Source of the DNA: Bacteroidota bacterium
GTDB taxonomy: Bacteria; Bacteroidota; Bacteroidia; Bacteroidales; VadinHA17
Assembly: GCA_022711195.1 (NCBI GenBank)
Contig: JAKLFN010000072.1
Coordinates: 1 to 9,873 of the forward strand
Length of the DNA stretch: 9,873 nt
Direction: 5' to 3'
The translations under genes were made by a program, and so were the position numbers. The notes beneath the pieces were generated by a model that saw only the letters and a program-made list of their open reading frames with translations, did not search any database and was not told where the DNA came from. Positions 370-9,873 of the stretch are shown here, one piece after another; the stretch's first letter is position 1; each line of letters opens with the position of its first letter.

Positions 370-1554
370 TTAAATATATTCAAACGTCACATTCTTCAGC
401 CACTTCTCCTCCAGCAGCCTGGCGATTCGCTTCACCACTGTCCTCCGTATTTCCAGTTCAACAGGAAGGTTGGGATCCTGGTGTGCGATGTTGATCCTTG
501 TACCGATGATAAAGTGTATCTCATCGCTGTCCATCAGCATTTTTACGATCTTGTCGGCAGGTCCTTTCTGCAGACGTGTACTGTTATTATATCTCTTCAG
601 AATCTCATTTACTTTCTGGAGAGTGAGTATGCCCTCAGTAACAAGGTCGATGCCTTCAAGGAAGCTCTCCGGGGGAAGCTCCGGGTCTTCAAAGATCAGC
701 TCATCTACAATTGTACGGTTGAGTTCTCGCGCAATAATGTCGGCGGTTGTGCCGCCGCACAGGATTACGCCCCCTTCATACTCTTTTACCTTGGTAGCCA
801 GCAGAGTGTCCTTTTCCTTTTCATAGGGCGGGCCTGTGCATATCAGAAGCTTGCGCGGCTCGCGGAAATAAATGATGGCACAGCTGATATCGTCCTTGGC
901 TTTGTAGCCGTCGTTCTTGTGCGCCATGGTCACAATTTTTCCTGCCAGCACCGACGCCGATATTGATGATTCGCCAGAAACAAGTGCAGAGGCATACTTC
1001 GAAATACTTTCTCTTTCCCAGCCGAAGGGAAACACCTCACTTCCCATACCGCTCTGTGCCACGCCGTCGGAGCAGAAGATTATCCTGTCTTCTTTTTCGG
1101 GCATGAACGTACATGTTTTCAACACCTTCCCGGCATGTTTTCCCTTTTCGAGCGTGACTCTCTTCCACCCGGGATCAAACTCCTGGTTCCCCCTGAGTAT
1201 GATAGCATGGGGATTATCGTATTCGAGTATGTTGGCTTTACCGCTGCTCTCGATGTCGACGATCGTAAAGGTCGAATAGGCTATCTTCCTTTCGCTGCAC
1301 ACTGGCAGTGTGTTCATAATGATTTCTGCAATAAGGTCAATATCCTTGTGTTCCCTGGTGAAGTTGAGAGCCATTGTGGCTGTAAGGGTAGCCAGGATGT
1401 TGGCTTTAACGCCATGACCCATGCCATCCGAAAGTACAGCAACTACGCGGTCTTCCTCCTTAATATATTTATTAAGAAAGACATCGCCGCAAATCCTCTC
1501 TCCGTCGTGGTTGCGCTGCTGGCTGTTGACCTCTATGTAAAAATCCTTCTTCAC
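370..1554 (-). CDS. SpoIIE/PP2C-type serine phosphatase
   Basis: A 394-residue cytosolic PPM/SpoIIE-family protein phosphatase, expected to remove phosphate from Ser/Thr of a partner protein using two metal ions. Seen in the sequence: a short N-terminus with CGD (22-24), the metal-binding SDGMGHG loop (42-48), FCSDGVAQSG (160-169) and KDDISCAI (220-227), which supply the usual acidic ligands. Residues of about 235-394 form a C-terminal extension beyond the catalytic domain (LLICTGPP, ILCGGTTADI) whose role I cannot name. No membrane segment or receiver domain is seen. The start is GTG at 1554, only 6 bases after the stop of the upstream sensor gene and in the same frame; the next in-frame ATG is residue 45, inside the catalytic motif. 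No Shine-Dalgarno precedes it, so translation is probably coupled. PP2C-type phosphatases next to sensory hydrogenases are known from anaerobes such as Ruminococcus albus, so a role in H2-dependent signalling is likely but inferred. Confidence 0.88.
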   Translation of the reverse strand: MKKDFYIEVNSQQRNHDGERICGDVFLNKYIKEEDRVVAVLSDGMGHGVKANILATLTATMALNFTREHKDIDLIAEIIMNTLPVCSERKIAYSTFTIVDIESSGKANILEYDNPHAIILRGNQEFDPGWKRVTLEKGKHAGKVLKTCTFMPEKEDRIIFCSDGVAQSGMGSEVFPFGWERESISKYASALVSGESSISASVLAGKIVTMAHKNDGYKAKDDISCAIIYFREPRKLLICTGPPYEKEKDTLLATKVKEYEGGVILCGGTTADIIARELNRTIVDELIFEDPELPPESFLEGIDLVTEGILTLQKVNEILKRYNNSTRLQKGPADKIVKMLMDSDEIHFIIGTRINIAHQDPNLPVELEIRRTVVKRIARLLEEKWLKNVTFEYI

Positions 1555-1560
1555 AACGGA

Positions 1561-3447
1561 TCAGATTTTTTTATTCTGGCTGCTTCTTTTCTTGTATGAT
1601 TCTATGATTGAGTTAAGCATCTGTTCTGTCTCTGATGCCCCTTCACCCAGGAGAAACCCTATTTTCTGTACCATCTCGAGATTCTTCTCGATCACCTCAC
1701 TGACCCTGTTAGTGACCTCTTCACCCTGTACCTCGGGTGAATAAAGATCGCGTATCACAGCCCCGCACATTTTGTTTTTCTTAATAGGGAAGATTGAGAT
1801 ATTGAGCATCTTATCCTCAAAGTGGATATCCTTGCTTACCACAGGTTCATCTTCTTTAAGAACGAAGGTGAACATATTGTAAACATTAAAAGGAATGAGA
1901 GTCTTCAGGTCGGCCCCGGCAAGGCCCGGAATGACTTCAGATATTGCACGTGCATCTTCTCCTATTATATTGATGAAGCCCCTGTTTGAGTGAAGAATCT
2001 TGAGGTTATTATCGGCGATCACAACACCGTTCGGGAGCTTATCGAGCATGTTGTTGAGCATGTCGGAAGCGCTCTGTGCCATCTCCTTCTCCCTGAGGGC
2101 CAGCTCTTCCGACTCCTTCAGCGCCTTTTTTGTCTCTGCAAGCTTCCTGTTAGTCTGCCTGAGTGTCTCTATATACTCCTGCTTGTTGCGCAGATTGAAG
2201 GTATGACACATCTCCGGGACAGCCAGTCCTTTGGCTACCGTCGATGCAAAATCGCGGCACGACATGTAACCACACGCACCGCAATTAAGCTCCTCCTCGG
2301 GATCATTCTTCCCAACGATCTTAAGCACTTCGATGATTGCTTCCTCTGGCGGCTCCGGAATACGCTGGTCGTCGGGCACAAAACTCCTCGAGAAATCGAG
2401 TTTCAGGAATTTATCCATGTTTTTCTGCCACTGATCCCTGTCGAGAGTTGAAATTCTTTTTTCGGTATAGCGGCTTACCAGCGCCCTCCTGCGGAACTTT
2501 TCGTTATGATTCTCCATACCCGGGCCCAGGAGGCACCCATGACAGAAGAAGAGGTTGAAATGATGGTTAATAGTATCAATCGATTTGTCGAAGTCGTGGA
2601 TCGCCTCGAGAACATCTTCCCTCCCAGAGGCAGTGATGACCCTTCCTGAGAGCATATCGCGTTTAATACCGGCAGCCTGGATTATTCCTGCCGGGACAGG
2701 ATAAAGAGCTCCCCAGTAACCATAAGGAGGGTCAAAGTCAGACATTTTTACTGTTCTCTCCTGTATATTGAATTCCTCGAAAAGCTGGCGAAGCTCAATG
2801 AAGGTGAGTACACCACTTATCAGTTTACCGGAATCATACAGCAGAGCTTCATCTTTTGCGTCAATACAAGGGCCTATCTGTACTGCCGCAACATCGTCAC
2901 CATAAAGTTTCTTTACCACCATCGCCGTTGCAATCATCGGCGATACAAGAGGGGCAAGGTTGGTAGTCATTTCAGGATGGAACTTCTCAACCATTTTGAC
3001 TACCGACGGGCAATTGGCAGTAATATAATATTTTCCTTCTGCCTTGCTGAAGAGGTCGGCATAATTAGCTGCAATAAGATCGACACCGAAAGATACCTCA
3101 TGTACATAGTTAAATCCCAGTTTCCTGATCATTGCCACGAACTTCCTGAAGTCAGTTATGTCGTCAAATTCCGATGCTATTGAAGGTTCAATCAGCGCGA
3201 CTACCTTCTTCCCTGACCGGAGCAGATCCTTTACTTCTTCCTTTGAGTCGCGGAACTCTATCGCTTTCGGTGAACAGGAGATATAGCATAATCCGCATCC
3301 TATGCAGCGGTTGCTGAGTATTGTGGGATGATCCTTCTGAGGCCGGACTTCAATGGCGTTTACAGGACAAACCCTTACACAGGAGTATGAGTTCCGGCAT
3401 TTATCATCATCGATCCGCAGAACAGGCTTTAAACTCTTCATTGTCAT
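1561..3447 (-). CDS. Sensory [FeFe]-hydrogenase-like protein with PAS domain (HydS type)
   Basis: A 628-residue soluble protein of the group C/D sensory hydrogenase type, thought to sense H2 or redox state through an H-cluster and pass a signal through a PAS domain. Order: two-cluster ferredoxin domain (first cluster C17, C23, C27 with Ser20 where the second Cys is expected; second cluster C48, C51, C54, C58); H-cluster domain of about 80-345 with L1 TANCP (143-147), L2 GPCIDAKDE (192-200) and L3 FCHGCLLGPG (301-310); a CxxCx4Cx16C [4Fe-4S] domain (C389, C392, C397, C414); a coiled coil of about 422-460; a PAS domain of about 462-570; and a C-terminal helix. The proton-relay Cys of catalytic enzymes is Asn145. 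The start is set by AGGAGG six bases upstream. The gene lies 15 bases after the small [2Fe-2S] gene and 6 before the phosphatase, implying one transcript. The output is probably protein-protein contact, possibly with the phosphatase. Confidence 0.88.
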   Translation of the reverse strand: MTMKSLKPVLRIDDDKCRNSYSCVRVCPVNAIEVRPQKDHPTILSNRCIGCGLCYISCSPKAIEFRDSKEEVKDLLRSGKKVVALIEPSIASEFDDITDFRKFVAMIRKLGFNYVHEVSFGVDLIAANYADLFSKAEGKYYITANCPSVVKMVEKFHPEMTTNLAPLVSPMIATAMVVKKLYGDDVAAVQIGPCIDAKDEALLYDSGKLISGVLTFIELRQLFEEFNIQERTVKMSDFDPPYGYWGALYPVPAGIIQAAGIKRDMLSGRVITASGREDVLEAIHDFDKSIDTINHHFNLFFCHGCLLGPGMENHNEKFRRRALVSRYTEKRISTLDRDQWQKNMDKFLKLDFSRSFVPDDQRIPEPPEEAIIEVLKIVGKNDPEEELNCGACGYMSCRDFASTVAKGLAVPEMCHTFNLRNKQEYIETLRQTNRKLAETKKALKESEELALREKEMAQSASDMLNNMLDKLPNGVVIADNNLKILHSNRGFINIIGEDARAISEVIPGLAGADLKTLIPFNVYNMFTFVLKEDEPVVSKDIHFEDKMLNISIFPIKKNKMCGAVIRDLYSPEVQGEEVTNRVSEVIEKNLEMVQKIGFLLGEGASETEQMLNSIIESYKKRSSQNKKI

Positions 3448-3462: not shown

Positions 3463-3717
3463 TTATTTTAACCTCCCCAGTTCCTTCTCGAGAAGAGATT
3501 CAATCCCTGAAACAGTAACACATTCATATAATGTCCCGTTGATAGTAAGATTGGGCCCGTTGCTACAATGTCCCATACAACGTGCTCCCTTAAAGACAAC
3601 CTTATCTTCGAGGTGATTCCTTTTAAGGTAATCCCGTATATACATTACTACATCCTTGTTGCCTCTTGAAAAACAAGAACTTCCAAGACAAATCTGCATT
3701 TCCGTCGCTTGTGCCAT
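3463..3717 (-). CDS. Thioredoxin-like [2Fe-2S] ferredoxin-domain protein
   Basis: An 84-residue cytosolic protein with the thioredoxin-fold [2Fe-2S] pattern: C10-x4-C15 and C47-x3-C51, the latter in RCMGHCSNGPN. This is the ligand arrangement of NuoE and of the small ferredoxin-like proteins found in hydrogenase clusters. It is about half the length of NuoE and lacks the N-terminal helical bundle seen in the 156-residue protein encoded at 4018. It probably transfers single electrons, most plausibly to or from the hydrogenase-like sensor encoded 15 bases downstream. It is the first gene of the minus-strand operon. No Shine-Dalgarno is visible before the ATG. A second Met at residue 7 is possible but would leave only three residues before the first Cys ligand, so the longer form is preferred. 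Confidence 0.85.
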   Translation of the reverse strand: MAQATEMQICLGSSCFSRGNKDVVMYIRDYLKRNHLEDKVVFKGARCMGHCSNGPNLTINGTLYECVTVSGIESLLEKELGRLK

Positions 3718-4017: not shown

Positions 4018-4488
4018 ATGAGTAAAGATATAGAGTCCATAATCAAACAGTATAAGCCCGGTAAAAGGGAGGAGCTCATACCTCTCCTGCAGGAGATACA
4101 GGACAAAAACGGACATCTGTCAGAGGAAGCTATCGTGAAGGTTGGAAAATTCGTAGGTCTGAGCACCACAAAGATCTACGGCCTTGCTACATTTTATGAT
4201 CAGTTCAGGTTTATACCCTCAGGCAAAGTCTGTATAAAAATCTGCAACGGAACAACCTGCTTCCTGAATGGCTCGCGGTCTGTAATAAATAAAATCAGGG
4301 AAGAAACAGGCCTGAGCGCCGGTCAGACTGGCAGGGACGGCAATTTCAGCTATGAAATCGTTACATGCATGGGAGGATGCAACAATGGCCCGCTGATACG
4401 TATTGAAGGGGAGTATTCAACACATGTAAAACCCGAACAAATACCTGACCTTATTAAAAAGCTCAGGTTTATTATTGAAAATGATTAA
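4018..4488 (+). CDS. hydC: NuoE-like [2Fe-2S] subunit (HydC) of NAD-linked hydrogenase-type complex
   Basis: A 156-residue cytosolic subunit of the NuoE/HydC family, which carries one [2Fe-2S] cluster next to the flavin subunit. An N-terminal helical bundle (about 1-65, with GLSTTKIYGLATFYDQF at 47-63, the family's signature region) precedes a thioredoxin-fold domain with ligands C76-x4-C81 and C117-x3-C121 in CMGGCNNGP. Length is usual for the family. No Shine-Dalgarno precedes the ATG; the start is fixed by the family N-terminus. The stop codon TAA directly abuts the ATG of the next gene, so translation is probably coupled. Association with NuoF-like and HydA-like genes, without other complex I genes, identifies a soluble trimeric hydrogenase-type complex and not respiratory complex I. 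It is the first gene of the operon and probably sits under the Rex-type operator. Confidence 0.92.
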   Translation: MSKDIESIIKQYKPGKREELIPLLQEIQDKNGHLSEEAIVKVGKFVGLSTTKIYGLATFYDQFRFIPSGKVCIKICNGTTCFLNGSRSVINKIREETGLSAGQTGRDGNFSYEIVTCMGGCNNGPLIRIEGEYSTHVKPEQIPDLIKKLRFIIEND

Positions 4489-6423
4489 ATGGAAGATCTG
4501 AAGAAATTCCTGACCGACAGGGTACTTCTGTTTGAGTCTGATACTCTGCCTCCTGAAACTGAAAAAGTTCTCAGCAGGATACGGAGAGAGAAGGCTGACA
4601 AGCCTGTTATTTATGTCTCCTCAGGAACTTCGGCAATAATTGCGGGTGCGGAAAAAACCTTCTCTTCAATAAAATCGTTTACAGACGACATAGGACAACC
4701 GGTTGAACTGGTAAAAGTCGGCTGTACGAGCCCTTTTAATTTTGAACCATTCATCTGCATACAGCTTCCCGGCAAGAACAAACTATTCTTCCGTAATATT
4801 ACAGAGGAGAAGGTCGAGCCTCTCATCAACGGGTTATTGCATAACGATATTAATAAAGACGACCTTGCCGGCCAGCAGGGAACAAAAGGATTCGAATTAT
4901 GGCCCGGGATCCCTTTTCTTGATGAGATACCCTTCTTCAGAAGGCAGAAAAGGGCTGTCCTGAATAACTGCGGCTGCTACGATCCGGAGAGTATTTCCGA
5001 ATATATCGCGCGCGGCGGTTATCGAGCATTTGTAAAAGCTATTCTGCACTATACTTATGAAGAAGTCTGCAACATAATCGAAACCAGTGGATTAAGGGGC
5101 AGAAGCGGCGGGGGATATCCCACTGGCTTAAAATGGAAGCAGGCGCTGAACACAACCTCTGCATCACGATACCTGATCTGCAATGCCCGGGAAAGCGACC
5201 CCGGAGGTTTCACCGACCGCACAATCCTCGAAAGCGATCCACACCGCCTGGTGGAAGGTATTGCCATCGCTTCTTATGCCATCGGAGCTACATCAGCTAT
5301 TATCTTCTTCAGGAAAGGATCATTACACGCACTAAACCGTTTGCAGAAAGCTATCGACCAGGCAAGGGAGTATTCACTGCTCGGCCATAATATCTTTTCC
5401 AGCGGATATAACCTCGATATTATTATCAGGCAGGAACCCGGTGCTTTTGTATGCGGCGAGGAGACAGCCCTAATAAGCACCCTCGAAGGCAAACGCGGAA
5501 TGCCTCAGCTTAAACCCCCATATCCGACTGCATCAGGATTATTCGGAAAACCGACAGTCATTAATAATGTCGAGACACTGATGAATGTTCCCCTTATCAT
5601 GCAAAACGGCCCGGAATGGTTCCGCTCAATGGGAACAGAGACAAGCCCTGGAACCAAGGTCTTCGCAGTTGCCGGAAAAGGCAGGATGTCGGGAGTCGTG
5701 GAGGTGGAAATGGGAACTTCCATCAGATCTGTCATCGACGATATTGCCGACGGGATCAAGGATGGTAAAGAACTGAAAGCTGTCCAGATGGGAGGAGCTT
5801 CCGGTACATTCATCACCTCTTCAAACCTCGACCTGGCAATAGACTATGATATATTAAAGGAGAAGGGTATTGCAATGGGATCAGGAGGTTTCGTGATCAT
5901 CGACGAATCAACATGCATCGTCGACCTGGTGCGCTATTATATGGAGTTTATCAGGGGCGAAAGCTGCGGTAAATGTATCCCATGCCGCGAAGGCACAGGA
6001 CGAATGCTGGAAATACTCGACAGTGTGATCCGCAAACCGGCAACCGAAGATTCAGGTACTACACTCGAGAGATTCAAGGGTGTGATGCAGCTCGAGACAA
6101 TAGCCTCGGTGATGAAAGATACCTCTCTCTGCGGCCTCGGCCAGACAGCTCCTAATCCTTTTCTCAGCGCCCTGGAAAATTTCAGGGAAGAGTTCGAGGA
6201 ACATATCTTCGACCGGAAATGCAAGGCAAATATCTGCAGGGGCCTCCGGACTTTCTCAATCGATGTCGAGAAATGTACCGGTTGTACTGCCTGCGAATCA
6301 AAATGTCCGGTAAACGCAATTTACGGAACAAGACTCCAGCCCTTCTTTATAGTTGAAGAGAAATGTACCGGATGTGGTATTTGCTATGATATCTGCAAAT
6401 TCAGTGCAATAAAAGTAAAATAA
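4489..6423 (+). CDS. hydB: NuoF-like flavoprotein subunit (HydB) with C-terminal 2[4Fe-4S] domain
   Basis: A 644-residue cytosolic HydB-type subunit, normally the FMN and NAD(H) site of HydABC. Order: N-terminal thioredoxin-like domain of about 38-125; NuoF core of about 155-575 with GLRGRSGGGYPTG (201-213), CNARESDPGGF (231-241), CGEETAL (322-328) and NNVETL (359-364); the [4Fe-4S] site C493, C496, C499 and C548; a possible HydB-type zinc site H572, C578, C583; and a ferredoxin domain (C596, C599, C602, C606 and C626, C629, C632, C636). Oddities: the N-terminal domain has SSGTSA (44-49) where cysteines are expected and keeps only C79 of the second pair, so its [2Fe-2S] cluster is probably lost. 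Using a constant offset of 140 from Thermus Nqo1, FMN/NADH-contact positions Gly66, Phe78 and Asp94 become Ser206, Gln218 and Arg234, while Lys75, Asn92, Glu95, Glu184 and Glu185 are kept. Nucleotide use may therefore differ. Confidence 0.9.
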   Translation: MEDLKKFLTDRVLLFESDTLPPETEKVLSRIRREKADKPVIYVSSGTSAIIAGAEKTFSSIKSFTDDIGQPVELVKVGCTSPFNFEPFICIQLPGKNKLFFRNITEEKVEPLINGLLHNDINKDDLAGQQGTKGFELWPGIPFLDEIPFFRRQKRAVLNNCGCYDPESISEYIARGGYRAFVKAILHYTYEEVCNIIETSGLRGRSGGGYPTGLKWKQALNTTSASRYLICNARESDPGGFTDRTILESDPHRLVEGIAIASYAIGATSAIIFFRKGSLHALNRLQKAIDQAREYSLLGHNIFSSGYNLDIIIRQEPGAFVCGEETALISTLEGKRGMPQLKPPYPTASGLFGKPTVINNVETLMNVPLIMQNGPEWFRSMGTETSPGTKVFAVAGKGRMSGVVEVEMGTSIRSVIDDIADGIKDGKELKAVQMGGASGTFITSSNLDLAIDYDILKEKGIAMGSGGFVIIDESTCIVDLVRYYMEFIRGESCGKCIPCREGTGRMLEILDSVIRKPATEDSGTTLERFKGVMQLETIASVMKDTSLCGLGQTAPNPFLSALENFREEFEEHIFDRKCKANICRGLRTFSIDVEKCTGCTACESKCPVNAIYGTRLQPFFIVEEKCTGCGICYDICKFSAIKVK

Positions 6424-6427
6424 GCTT

Positions 6428-8149
6428 ATGCTTTTTACGATACAGGTAAATAACAAGAAGATTAAAGCTGAAAAAGGAGAAACGATCCTTTCGGCCCTGA
6501 ACCGCAATGGCATAATTATTCCCACATTGTGCCGTATGAAGGAGTTCTCTCCCACAGGGGCATGCAGGATGTGTGTTGTTGAAGTTGAAGGACGCGACAG
6601 GTTAGTAACTGCCTGCTCACAGCCTGTTGAGGAATGGATGAAGATAAAAACACACTCACCGAGAGTGATCACAGCGCGGAAAACAATTGTGGAACTCCTT
6701 CTTTCCAATCACCCCGACGATTGTCTCTATTGTGACAAAAACCTGAATTGTGAACTTCAGAGCCTTTCCGAAGAGCTTAACATCAGGGAAAGACGTATCC
6801 GTGCAAAGAAAATACGTCCTCGCCTCGACCAGTCGAGCCCGGCAATCGTCAGGGAACTGTCAAAATGCATCCTCTGCGGAAGGTGTGTGCGAGTCTGCGA
6901 AGAGGTAATAACTGCTACATCACTCGATTTTATTAACAGGGGATCTCTTACACATGTAGGCCCTGCAATGGACAAGGACTTTAACTTCTCAAGCTGTATC
7001 CATTGCGGCCAGTGCGTCCTTGTTTGCCCTACAGGGGCCCTGCATGAAAAACACAATATTTCGGAGGTGCAGGAGTATCTTAATAATCCCGATATACTGA
7101 AAGTTATACAGTATTCTCCTCTTGTAGCTTCAGGAATCGCCGGAGAGCTGGGAATAAAGTACACCAGGGATTTTGACAGGATACTTAACTCTATACTCCG
7201 TAAGATAGGCTTTGAGAAAGTCTTCACCACCGGTACGGGCACTGATATATGTATTACTGAGGTAATGAACCAGCTCAGGAATAATATCGAAACGAAATCT
7301 GGTCAGCCTCTCTACATTTCTGCATGTCCGGCATGGATCAAATATGCCGAACAATTTATGCCCGAAATTATTCCCCAGCTGTCAACCGTAAAATCACCGC
7401 AACAAATTACAGGCATTCTCATAAAGACGCTCGTTGCTGAAGAATCGGGTGTAAAACCTGAAAAGATATTTTCAGTTTCTGCAACACCCTGTATGGCAAT
7501 GAAATTCGAGGCCCGCAGGGATGGGATGATGCGTAAGGGGATAAGCGATGTTGACTCCGTAATGACTGTCAGGGAACTGGTGCGGCTGATCAGGCTTTAC
7601 GGGATCGATGTCACAAATATCGAACCCGAACCTGTCGATGAACCGATTTCCGGACTGACATCCTCTGCATTGCTGGCAGAAGTGTCAGGAGGAATTGCCG
7701 AGGCTGTCATCAGGCTCTTGTTGTTCGATAAGAACGGCAGGGAGGCCGACAGGCAGATATTTAAGAAACTTCGCACCGGAAACCAGTTCAGGGAACTCTC
7801 CGTTAAAACTGAAGAAACGGAAATTAATATCGCTATTGTTGACGGGCTGAAAGGACTCGAAAAGCTCAAAATAGCACAAGCTGCAGGAAAACAGTATGAC
7901 CTTATTGAAGTTATGGCCTGCCAGGGAGGGTGTATTAATGGAGCAGGCCTGCCCTACAGCTCTGTGAAGGAAGAGAAGAAAAGCAGAACCAGGCTGATCT
8001 ATTCTGCCGACGACACTGATGCACTTAATCTCCCGTGCAAATCACCTGTCCTCATAAACCTGTATGACAGGCTCATTAAAGAAAATAAGGAAATTGCCGA
8101 TAAGAAAATATTCTTTACACATTTTGAAAAGAGAAATGTATTACTATAA
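6428..8149 (+). CDS. hydA: [FeFe]-hydrogenase-type catalytic subunit (HydA), divergent active site
   Basis: A 573-residue HydA-type subunit, expected to carry the H-cluster that interconverts H2 with protons and electrons. Order: N-terminal [2Fe-2S] domain (C35, C46, C49, C63); His-ligated [4Fe-4S] domain (H95, C99, C102, C108); two-cluster ferredoxin domain (C147, C150, C153, C157 and C190, C193, C196, C200); H-cluster domain of about 220-573. All four H-cluster cysteines are present: C300 (L1, SACPAW), C355 (L2, TPCMAMKFE), C498 and C502 (L3, MACQGGCINGAG). Residue numbers coincide with CpI through L2, exposing striking substitutions: Cys299 to Ala, Glu279 to Val, Glu282 to Gln, Arg286 to Asn, Met353 to Thr and Lys358 to Met; Ser319 is kept. 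It starts 4 bases after hydB with no Shine-Dalgarno. It is clearly a HydA homologue of an NAD-linked trimer, but normal H2 turnover is doubtful. It lacks the extra C-terminal [2Fe-2S] domain of Thermotoga HydA. No maturase genes (hydE, hydF, hydG) lie in the window. Confidence 0.9.
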   Translation: MLFTIQVNNKKIKAEKGETILSALNRNGIIIPTLCRMKEFSPTGACRMCVVEVEGRDRLVTACSQPVEEWMKIKTHSPRVITARKTIVELLLSNHPDDCLYCDKNLNCELQSLSEELNIRERRIRAKKIRPRLDQSSPAIVRELSKCILCGRCVRVCEEVITATSLDFINRGSLTHVGPAMDKDFNFSSCIHCGQCVLVCPTGALHEKHNISEVQEYLNNPDILKVIQYSPLVASGIAGELGIKYTRDFDRILNSILRKIGFEKVFTTGTGTDICITEVMNQLRNNIETKSGQPLYISACPAWIKYAEQFMPEIIPQLSTVKSPQQITGILIKTLVAEESGVKPEKIFSVSATPCMAMKFEARRDGMMRKGISDVDSVMTVRELVRLIRLYGIDVTNIEPEPVDEPISGLTSSALLAEVSGGIAEAVIRLLLFDKNGREADRQIFKKLRTGNQFRELSVKTEETEINIAIVDGLKGLEKLKIAQAAGKQYDLIEVMACQGGCINGAGLPYSSVKEEKKSRTRLIYSADDTDALNLPCKSPVLINLYDRLIKENKEIADKKIFFTHFEKRNVLL

Positions 8150-8170: not shown

Positions 8171-8204
8171 CCCGGGGTGTGTTATTCATACATCCTCCTG
8201 GCCC

Positions 8205-8257: not shown

Positions 8258-9873
8258 ATGCTTGTATACACCATAAAAGAACTTTGCCGTACCTGCTACA
8301 CTTGTGTAAGGGAATGCCCTGCAAAGGCTATCCGTATTGTCGGCGGACAGGCAGAGGTAATTGTTGAAAGGTGTATTGCATGCGGTAACTGTACGAAGGT
8401 GTGCAGCCAGGGTGCAAAAGTATTTCTTAACACCACCGACAGGGTTATGAAGCTGCTCGGGGAAAACCAGAAGGTAGCAGCCATTGTCGCTCCAAGCTTC
8501 CCTGCAGAATTTTCCGACATCCCCGACCATAATATCCTGATCGGTATGATAAGGGCAATAGGATTTAAATATGTTACCGAGGTATCATTTGGCGCCGACT
8601 TAGTTGCCGACAGGTACAAATCGCTCGTCAATGAAAGCAAGGAATATTATATAACATCTGATTGCCCGTCTATAGTCAATTATATAAAATACTATCATCC
8701 TGCACTCACCGACAGCCTTGCCCCGATAGTGTCACCGATGGTGGCAATGAGCAGGGTGGTTCGAAAGAAATACGGCGATGATGTTAAAGTCGTTTTTATC
8801 GGTCCCTGTGTTGCCAAGAAAGCCGAAAGCAGCGAGATCGACGAAGCTATAACATTCACCGAGCTGAGGGATATGTTCATACAGCTCGGCATAACCGCGG
8901 CTACCGTTACTCCAACCGGGTTTGACCCCCCGGAAGGTGGAAGAGGAGCCATCTTCCCTGTTACCAGGGGATTATTGCAGACAGCAAATATAAACGATGA
9001 CGCAATTACCGGAAACATCATTGCTGCCGAGGGAAGGATAGGCTTCCAGGAAGCATTGAAGGAGTTTGAAGCGGGCCTCATTAAAACACAGCATGTAGAA
9101 TTGTTATGCTGCGAAGGATGTATTATGGGACCGGGACTCTCAAAAAACGGTAAACAGTACAACCGCAGGGCGCTGGTAAGCAGCTACGCAAACCAGAAAA
9201 TGAACAATATCGGCAACAGCGACTGGAAGGAGGCTTTTGAGGAGTTCTCAACAATCGATCTTTCAGTGAAGCACAGGTCTGAAGATCACAGGCTGCTGAT
9301 AGCCGACGATATTGATGTGTCAGATGTCCTGATCTCAATGGGTAAGAAAACCAAGAAAGATCAGCTCGACTGCGGCGCCTGCGGTTACGAGACATGTATT
9401 GAACATGCCATTGCCATAAAAAGAGGACTTGCTGAAGTAGAAATGTGCCTGCCCTATACTATTGAGAAGCTTCATAAATCGGTTACCGACCTGGCTCTTT
9501 CTAATGAAAAACTCAGCTCCATGAAGCAGGCATTGAAACAATCCGAGAAGCTTGCACACATGGGTCAACTGTCGGCAGGAATAGCACATGAACTGAACAA
9601 CCCGCTGGGCGTGGTGATAATGTACAGCAATATCCTGCTTGACGAATGCAAACCCGACGATCCGGTACGAGAAGATTTAAAACTCGTTGTAGAACAGGCC
9701 GGCCGTTGTAAAAAAATTGTTGCCGGACTGCTGAATTTTGCCAGGAAGAACCAGGTGAACCATCAGATTATAAACCTCAATGAACTTATCTCTCACAGCC
9801 TTGAAAGTATTATCGTTCCAAAATCGATCAAGGTAACTGTTTCCGATAAGACCACTAATCCGGATACCATGCT
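8258..9873 (+). CDS. Sensory [FeFe]-hydrogenase-like histidine kinase, 3' end outside window
   Basis: The first 538 residues of a soluble sensor kinase with a hydrogenase-derived input domain. Order: two complete [4Fe-4S] motifs (C10, C13, C16, C20 and C39, C42, C45, C49); H-cluster domain of about 70-335 with L1 TSDCP (133-137), L2 GPCVAKKAE (182-190) and L3 CCEGCIMGPG (284-293); a CxxCx4Cx16C [4Fe-4S] domain (C372, C375, C380, C397); a coiled coil of about 404-430; and a HisKA domain whose H-box GIAHELNNP places the phospho-accepting histidine at 444. The ATP-binding domain should follow beyond the window edge. Asp135 replaces the proton-relay Cys, as expected for a sensor, while the L2 lysine is kept (Lys187). 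ATG 8258 is chosen because it precedes the first cluster by nine residues, as in the paralogue family; AGGGGGA lies some 20 bases upstream, too far for a normal Shine-Dalgarno. A response regulator is expected downstream. The gene may be co-transcribed with hydCBA across a 108-bp spacer. Confidence 0.88.
   Translation, partial: MLVYTIKELCRTCYTCVRECPAKAIRIVGGQAEVIVERCIACGNCTKVCSQGAKVFLNTTDRVMKLLGENQKVAAIVAPSFPAEFSDIPDHNILIGMIRAIGFKYVTEVSFGADLVADRYKSLVNESKEYYITSDCPSIVNYIKYYHPALTDSLAPIVSPMVAMSRVVRKKYGDDVKVVFIGPCVAKKAESSEIDEAITFTELRDMFIQLGITAATVTPTGFDPPEGGRGAIFPVTRGLLQTANINDDAITGNIIAAEGRIGFQEALKEFEAGLIKTQHVELLCCEGCIMGPGLSKNGKQYNRRALVSSYANQKMNNIGNSDWKEAFEEFSTIDLSVKHRSEDHRLLIADDIDVSDVLISMGKKTKKDQLDCGACGYETCIEHAIAIKRGLAEVEMCLPYTIEKLHKSVTDLALSNEKLSSMKQALKQSEKLAHMGQLSAGIAHELNNPLGVVIMYSNILLDECKPDDPVREDLKLVVEQAGRCKKIVAGLLNFARKNQVNHQIINLNELISHSLESIIVPKSIKVTVSDKTTNPDTM

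Follow-up and report, generated by a model that had tools for sequence, protein, structure and literature searches.

A HydABC-like complex with a remodelled H-cluster pocket from environmental Bacteroidales

The window analysed here, a stretch of 9,873 nucleotides from a Bacteroidota bacterium (contig JAKLFN010000072.1 of assembly GCA_022711195.1), encodes a HydABC-like trimeric complex in which the H-cluster pocket of the HydA subunit is remodelled. The remodelled pocket was shown to mark a clade of HydABC-like trimers which, in this sampling, belongs to one environmental Bacteroidales family; the named clade genomes are all uncultured metagenome-assembled genomes (MAGs). Either the complex is a highly atypical hydrogenase, or it has ceased to be a hydrogenase. 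With a probability just short of even, we tentatively read it as an NAD-linked H2 enzyme with a slow or sensor-like pocket of the Group D type, in which Glu418 would stand in for Lys358 and Cys299. This reading, in which the H-cluster is still present, is favoured only narrowly over one in which the [2Fe] site is missing.

Pocket residues of HydA in the window and in the clade

HydA (573 amino acids, 6428..8149 on the forward strand, as are all features of this subunit) comprises a 2Fe-2S domain, a His/Cys-ligated 4Fe-4S cluster, two further 4Fe-4S clusters and the H-domain, as assigned by Pfam (PF02906, PF13510, PF10588, Fer4), by PDB alignments and by a fold match to CpI among re-aligned Foldseek matches. 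In the predicted model, ten-residue blocks of residues 91-210 have a mean pLDDT of 51-69, too low for an assessment of the accessory clusters. The subunit was aligned with HMMER to CpI, both as its C299A variant (6gly) and in a form with Cys299 (9rj9), and to the HydA proteins of 8a6t, 7q4v and 7p5h. An earlier note, made from the sequence of the window, had described a HydA with intact H-cluster cysteines and an altered active site, and the alignment confirmed every residue that it had named. The four H-cluster cysteines are retained as C300 (codon at nucleotide 7325), C355 (7490), C498 and C502, together with Ser319 (7382). The proton-path residues Glu279, Glu282 and Arg286 are replaced by V279 (7262), Q282 (7271) and N286 (7283) in a segment, 7262..7285, that is variable across the clade. 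At 7322..7327, A299 (7322) takes the place of the Group A cysteine and is followed by the cluster ligand C300. The L2 loop TPCMAMKFE (7484..7510) contains T353 (7484), the ligand C355, M358 (7499) in place of the consensus Lys, and E361 (7508). The note's numbering coincides with that of CpI for the residues named up to 361, nucleotides 7259-7510 being exactly residues 278-361, but not for the cysteines of loop L3: the window HydA is one residue short near L3, and its 498/502 correspond to CpI 499/503.

Beyond the residues of the earlier note, CpI Ser232, Phe417, Gly418 and Gln509 were found to be replaced by Leu232, Ala417, Glu418 and Leu508. Ala417 and Glu418, placed by the CpI/HydA alignment, lie at 7676..7681, and Leu508 ends the L3 loop CQGGCINGAGL (7919..7951), which also holds the ligands C498 and C502. 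The H-domain signatures of Group A are an L2 of (M/T)PCx2Kx2E and an L3 ending in GxGQ (PMC11926857, PMC11406978), and neither is matched by TPCMAMKFE and GCINGAGL. HydA also scores below the curated NCBIfam cut-offs of NF040763 (564.6 vs 765 bits) and TIGR02512 (337.1 vs 405.95 bits), and above that of Pfam PF02906 (215.6 vs 22.1).

The clade sharing Ala299, Thr353 and Met358, for which the earlier note had proposed to look, exists. Residues were counted in 456 sequences longer than 440 residues, which came mostly from searches seeded with clade members, so that the totals are not natural frequencies. Met358 is present in 256 of these homologues, among which Glu or Asp418 and Thr or Ser353 each occur in 255, Leu or Met509 in 252, Ala417 in 237 and Ala299 in 224. 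Gln509 is found in all 175 homologues with Lys or Arg at 358 and is absent from 280 of the 281 without such a residue, including 255 of the 256 with Met358. The exception is P0133 (M358, N418, Q509), an outside lineage and the sole Met358 homologue without Glu/Asp418, which speaks against a strict link between positions 358 and 509. Across 167 clade members, tabulated from database proteins together with genome loci and with some proteins entered twice, conservation reaches 99-100% for Met497, Gln325 and Pro354 and 97% for Pro324.

In a quick IQ-TREE analysis of 89 rows, 52 Met358 rows and three variants fall into one group (SH-aLRT 100, stem 0.93); the program warned of long branches for L040, L041, L054, L071 and L076, the exact placement of which is unsure. 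Within the family of the nearest genome, a match at E <= 1e-130 was found in 77 of 117 genomes, with at least 56% identity in 73 of them; these counts were tallied by hand, and part of the matches were read residue by residue. Among 295 genomes of the same order, 101 had a match and two of the matches exceeded 52% identity; the 30 order-wide loci that were read comprised 28 with Lys/Arg358 and two with Met358. On these figures, the remodelled HydA looks family-specific and vertically inherited.

The operon is under purifying selection, with dN/dS values of 0.018-0.076 in nine of eleven gene pairs, the other two being saturated. The earlier note had considered the changes coherent and decay unlikely, which is borne out by these values and by a pattern that recurs in 255 homologues of the clade, drawn from many assemblies. 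Decay into a pseudogene or an artefact of assembly, to which we give hardly any credence, was rejected on the basis of this clade-wide conservation and selection.

Linked change in HydB, and relation to known hydrogenases

The second subunit, HydB (4489..6423, forward strand), is a BfuB-like FMN/NAD subunit with a C-terminal 2x4Fe-4S part, assigned by Pfam and PDB alignments. With the HydB domain set PF01512, PF10589 and Fer4, and with PF01257 in HydC, the pair has the make-up of BfuB/BfuC. In the N-terminal domain of HydB (4630..4737), comparison of loci revealed that Cys48 and Cys83, the ligands of cluster B5, are replaced by Ser48 and Phe83. Neither cysteine is present in any of 44 Met358 loci, and both are present in 23 of 23 Lys/Arg358 loci; in the Met358 clade the change in the H2 pocket is thus accompanied by one in the electron path, at B5. 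The B2 ligands His572, Cys476, Cys578 and Cys583 (His572 corresponding to the B2 histidine, H525 in the NiFe enzyme) and the checked B1 and B3 ligands are present in all 44 clade loci. The other counted HydB ligands (B4 was tallied by its first and last Cys), those of C1 in HydC and the accessory ligands of HydA are kept in the Met358 and Lys/Arg358 groups alike, barring incomplete rows and single exceptions. Cluster B5 has been described as helping to hold electrons during bifurcation, and the cofactors of BfuBC have been termed absolutely conserved (PMC9304861).

The window complex shares with the trimeric Group A3 HydABC enzymes (BfuABC; 8a6t, 7q4v, 7p5h) the subunits, the domain order, the FMN/NAD subunit, clusters B1-B4 and C1, the accessory clusters of HydA and the four H-cluster cysteines. 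It differs from them by A299, M358, E418 and L509 (CpI numbering) and by a HydB without B5 ligands. The sensory hydrogenases of Groups C and D (TamHydS, TmHydS) also have Ala299, together with a residue at 353 that is small or bears a hydroxyl (PMC10407848, PMC8163306, PMC10055695); in contrast to these, the window HydA is part of a trimer, has Met358 and the new Glu418, and keeps Met497. The C-terminal FeS domain of Groups C and D, PF04060, was called by Pfam on the two H-domain proteins of the locus, HydS1 and HydS2, and not on HydA.

Not every change in the pocket is anomalous in itself. Ala299 combined with a hydroxyl residue at 353 is present in Group C/D enzymes that still bear an H-cluster (PMC10407848, PMC8163306), and Thr353 occurs in CpII, an enzyme of high activity with an altered bias (PMC10055695). 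Glu279 is already gone in Lys/Arg358 relatives sharing the operon. For a HydABC-type HydA without Lys358, no published precedent was recognised in the literature searched, as judged by titles and the beginnings of abstracts. The really unusual part is the combination of Met358, Glu418 and Leu509 with the linked loss in HydB.

HydA proteins with Lys or Arg358 share this operon layout at 25 loci (in the range L045-L076), with about 43-52% identity. They differ in having mostly Cys299 or Asp299, Met353 and Gln509, and Cys48/Cys83 in HydB; among 26 such relatives, Cys299 accounts for 46% and Asp299 for 42%, and Glu279 is mostly lost. The Asp299 group (L048, L049, L053, L057, L059, L061-L063, L066, L074 and others), some members of which are labelled Lentimicrobium, is a natural counterpart of the CpI C299D variants. 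In prototypical enzymes Asp is the one tolerated substitution at 299, and others severely impair the enzyme (PMC10055695). A further set of 29 canonical-looking HydA proteins (L078-L107) carries TSCSPGW, in which position 300 is Ser, not Cys, a feature shared with the HydA of A. woodii; this Ser aligns with a CpI cluster ligand, and the motif was already known (PMC11406978).

A second lineage without a basic residue at 358 (L072, L073, P0121-P0124, P0126) represents a separate loss. Like the window HydA it is hydrophobic or aromatic at 509 and polar at 418, but it has Ser or Asn299, Leu353, Ala358 and Asn418, and no sensor was called at L072 and L073. It forms a series from relatives with Arg358 and Asn418 to members with Ala358, Asn418 and Leu, Phe or Tyr509. 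Both HydB proteins of this lineage that were read retain Cys48 and Cys83, so that loss of B5 does not always accompany loss of Lys358. Where Lys358 is gone, residue 418 is Glu, Asp or Asn in nearly every case, as if one side chain replaced the other. When 206 rows out of the 456 were placed on a tree, three losses of the basic residue at 358 were required, and Gln509 was lost in two of the three. Coupling of 358 with 509 and 418 was unsupported in a sign test (median p 0.5), in which three independent losses put significance out of reach; because the raw counts are non-independent, no statistical coupling is claimed.

A slow H2 enzyme or an enzyme without the diiron site

In the reading that is tentatively preferred, the H-cluster would still be assembled, and the pocket would have converged on that of the Group D sensory enzymes. 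Ala299 together with a hydroxyl residue at 353 would slow turnover, and Glu418, in a loop beside the diiron site, may hold the cofactor in place of Lys358, relay protons in place of Cys299-Glu279, or both. The whole complex would then be a slow NAD-linked H2 enzyme, probably biased towards uptake or sensing, with bifurcation altered or gone. Group D enzymes have Ala299 and Ser or Thr353, and homology modelling placed a pocket residue, Glu252, at 3.4 A from the dithiolate (PMC10407848, PMC8163306). It is this Group D solution, Ala299 with a hydroxyl residue at 353 and a newly gained carboxylate in the pocket, that makes us lean narrowly to a slow sensor- or uptake-like enzyme. The conserved shell around the [2Fe] site, Met497 above all, argues for a diiron site, and in a Group A enzyme the exchange M497L led to loss of [2Fe] (PMC10055695). 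Genome G072 counts in the same direction: its only detected PF02906 proteins are a HydA and an H-domain sensor, both with Ala358, and HydF and HydG are nevertheless kept in this single 2.5-Mb MAG, which is possibly incomplete.

Several points weigh against a retained H-cluster. The loss of B5 suggests a change of function. The position of the Group D Glu, probably equivalent to Val423, is not 418, and residue 423 is Ile in the window and mostly Leu, Met, Ile or Phe in the clade. HydG, which normally follows RibF or Rex, is cleanly missing there in 11 clade loci that retain the operon (L019, L026, L037, L038, L042, L044, L215, L216, L218, L220, L221). A further point concerns a basic residue, called an arginine by its authors, which we take to be Lys358. 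This residue lies near the distal cyanide, and its mutation to Asn abolished the [2Fe] signals in a Group A enzyme (PMC11376134).

A serious alternative, which we give clearly less than an even chance, is that the [2Fe] site has been given up and only [4Fe-4S]H is left. The complex would then be a Bfu-like NADH/ferredoxin oxidoreductase, and the vacated pocket of HydA would serve to hand electrons on, either to a partner protein or to some other third substrate. The joint loss in the window HydA of Lys358, all three charged proton-path residues, Met353 and Gln509 points this way, as does the loss of Cys48 and Cys83 of HydB in the same loci. Ala at 299 also occurs in the Nar1/IOP1 proteins, which lack [2Fe]. 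About half of the HydABC homologues have been stated not to be hydrogenases (PMC9304861). Six of the genomes with a HydG-less locus (G018, G025, G036, G037, G041 and G043, with L019, L026, L037, L038, L042 and L044) contain no HydE, HydF or HydG of their own, and the operon is under purifying selection in pairs from five of these six plus L026 (dN/dS 0.029-0.076). These absences are, however, not simply readable, since all six genomes carry canonical HydA genes, and absence of maturases was for this reason rejected as proof of a [2Fe]-less enzyme. The canonical genes have dN/dS values of 0.03-0.04 in two of four pairs, the other two being saturated, and in G018 two of them are located on contigs at least 197 kb long; either maturases are present and escaped detection, or these hydrogenases mature by another route. 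Also against the alternative stand the shell around [2Fe] with Met497 and the presence of HydG in 56 of the 73 family genomes. One of the 56, G025, carries it on a contig of odd composition: the HydF-HydE-HydG stretch at L119 (contig C169) is probably foreign, or misbinned, because its G+C content is 61.7% vs 45-47% in two other G025 stretches. Where HydG adjoins the operon, in 28 clade loci, all ligand cysteines of both its clusters are present, and 26 of 27 genomes of the Lys/Arg358 and second lineages plus that of L071 have HydG. The maturase evidence is conflicting and cannot decide on the diiron site. The earlier note had put forward both kinds of enzyme, a slow, biased or sensor-like hydrogenase and a HydABC relative with other electron-transfer chemistry, and the present evidence does not settle which of them applies.

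Marginally more doubtful still is the wider proposal that the H2 site was dismantled, the pocket rebuilt around Met358, Glu418 and Leu509, and B5 shed, which would yield a non-hydrogenase electron-transfer enzyme across a Bacteroidales family, with a third substrate or a protein acceptor; such an enzyme would sit hidden under annotations as 'iron-only hydrogenase group A'. That the substitutions compensate each other in an ordinary hydrogenase, with near-normal H2 turnover and bifurcation, appears improbable, given that Cys299, the proton path, Lys358, Gln509 and B5 are all altered and that changes of Cys299 other than to Asp severely impair prototypical enzymes (PMC10055695).

Operon organization and implications

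HydC (4018..4488, forward strand), a thioredoxin-like [2Fe-2S] subunit identified by PF01257 with conserved ligands of cluster C1, precedes HydB and HydA. Upstream, on the reverse strand, lie genes for a SpoIIE-type phosphatase (370..1554; PF07228), for HydS1 (1561..3447), an H-domain protein with a C-terminal FeS domain assigned by Pfam and motif reading, and for a small thioredoxin-like [2Fe-2S] protein with four conserved Cys (3463..3717; PF01257). Downstream of HydA, HydS2 (8258..9871, forward strand, with a possible alternative GTG start at 8177), an H-domain sensor with HisKA, leaves the window. The earlier note's remark that the second sensor has a more canonical L2 than HydA holds for HydS2, in which GPCVAKKAE keeps Lys358, and not for HydS1, in which GPCIDAKDE has Ala at this position. 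HydS1 is without the Lys358 equivalent in Met358 and Lys/Arg358 loci alike, wherever the motif (GPC-I-D/G-A-K-x-E) was found, and HydS1 itself may have no diiron site.

The nearest proteins and loci belong to Bacteroidales MAGs, at 87% identity. The conserved operon of the clade includes two H-domain sensors, the SpoIIE phosphatase, a two-component pair, Rex, RibF and often HydG. Among 48 Met358 loci, several of which are cut by contig ends, HydC-HydB-HydA is complete in 40, HydS1 is present in 39, HydS2 in 43, a response regulator in 38, Rex in 38, RibF in 33, HydG in 28 and HydE in 24.

If the diiron site is present, the lysine deemed necessary to hold it is replaceable in nature, with a glutamate as the candidate substitute, and the clade would allow the tuning of the H-cluster by its protein surroundings to be tested directly. 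If it is absent, annotation over-predicts H2 metabolism in these environmental Bacteroidales, and a further reaction of the Bfu type awaits discovery. Under either reading, the loss of B5 that goes with the altered pocket provides a natural experiment on what this cluster does in electron bifurcation.
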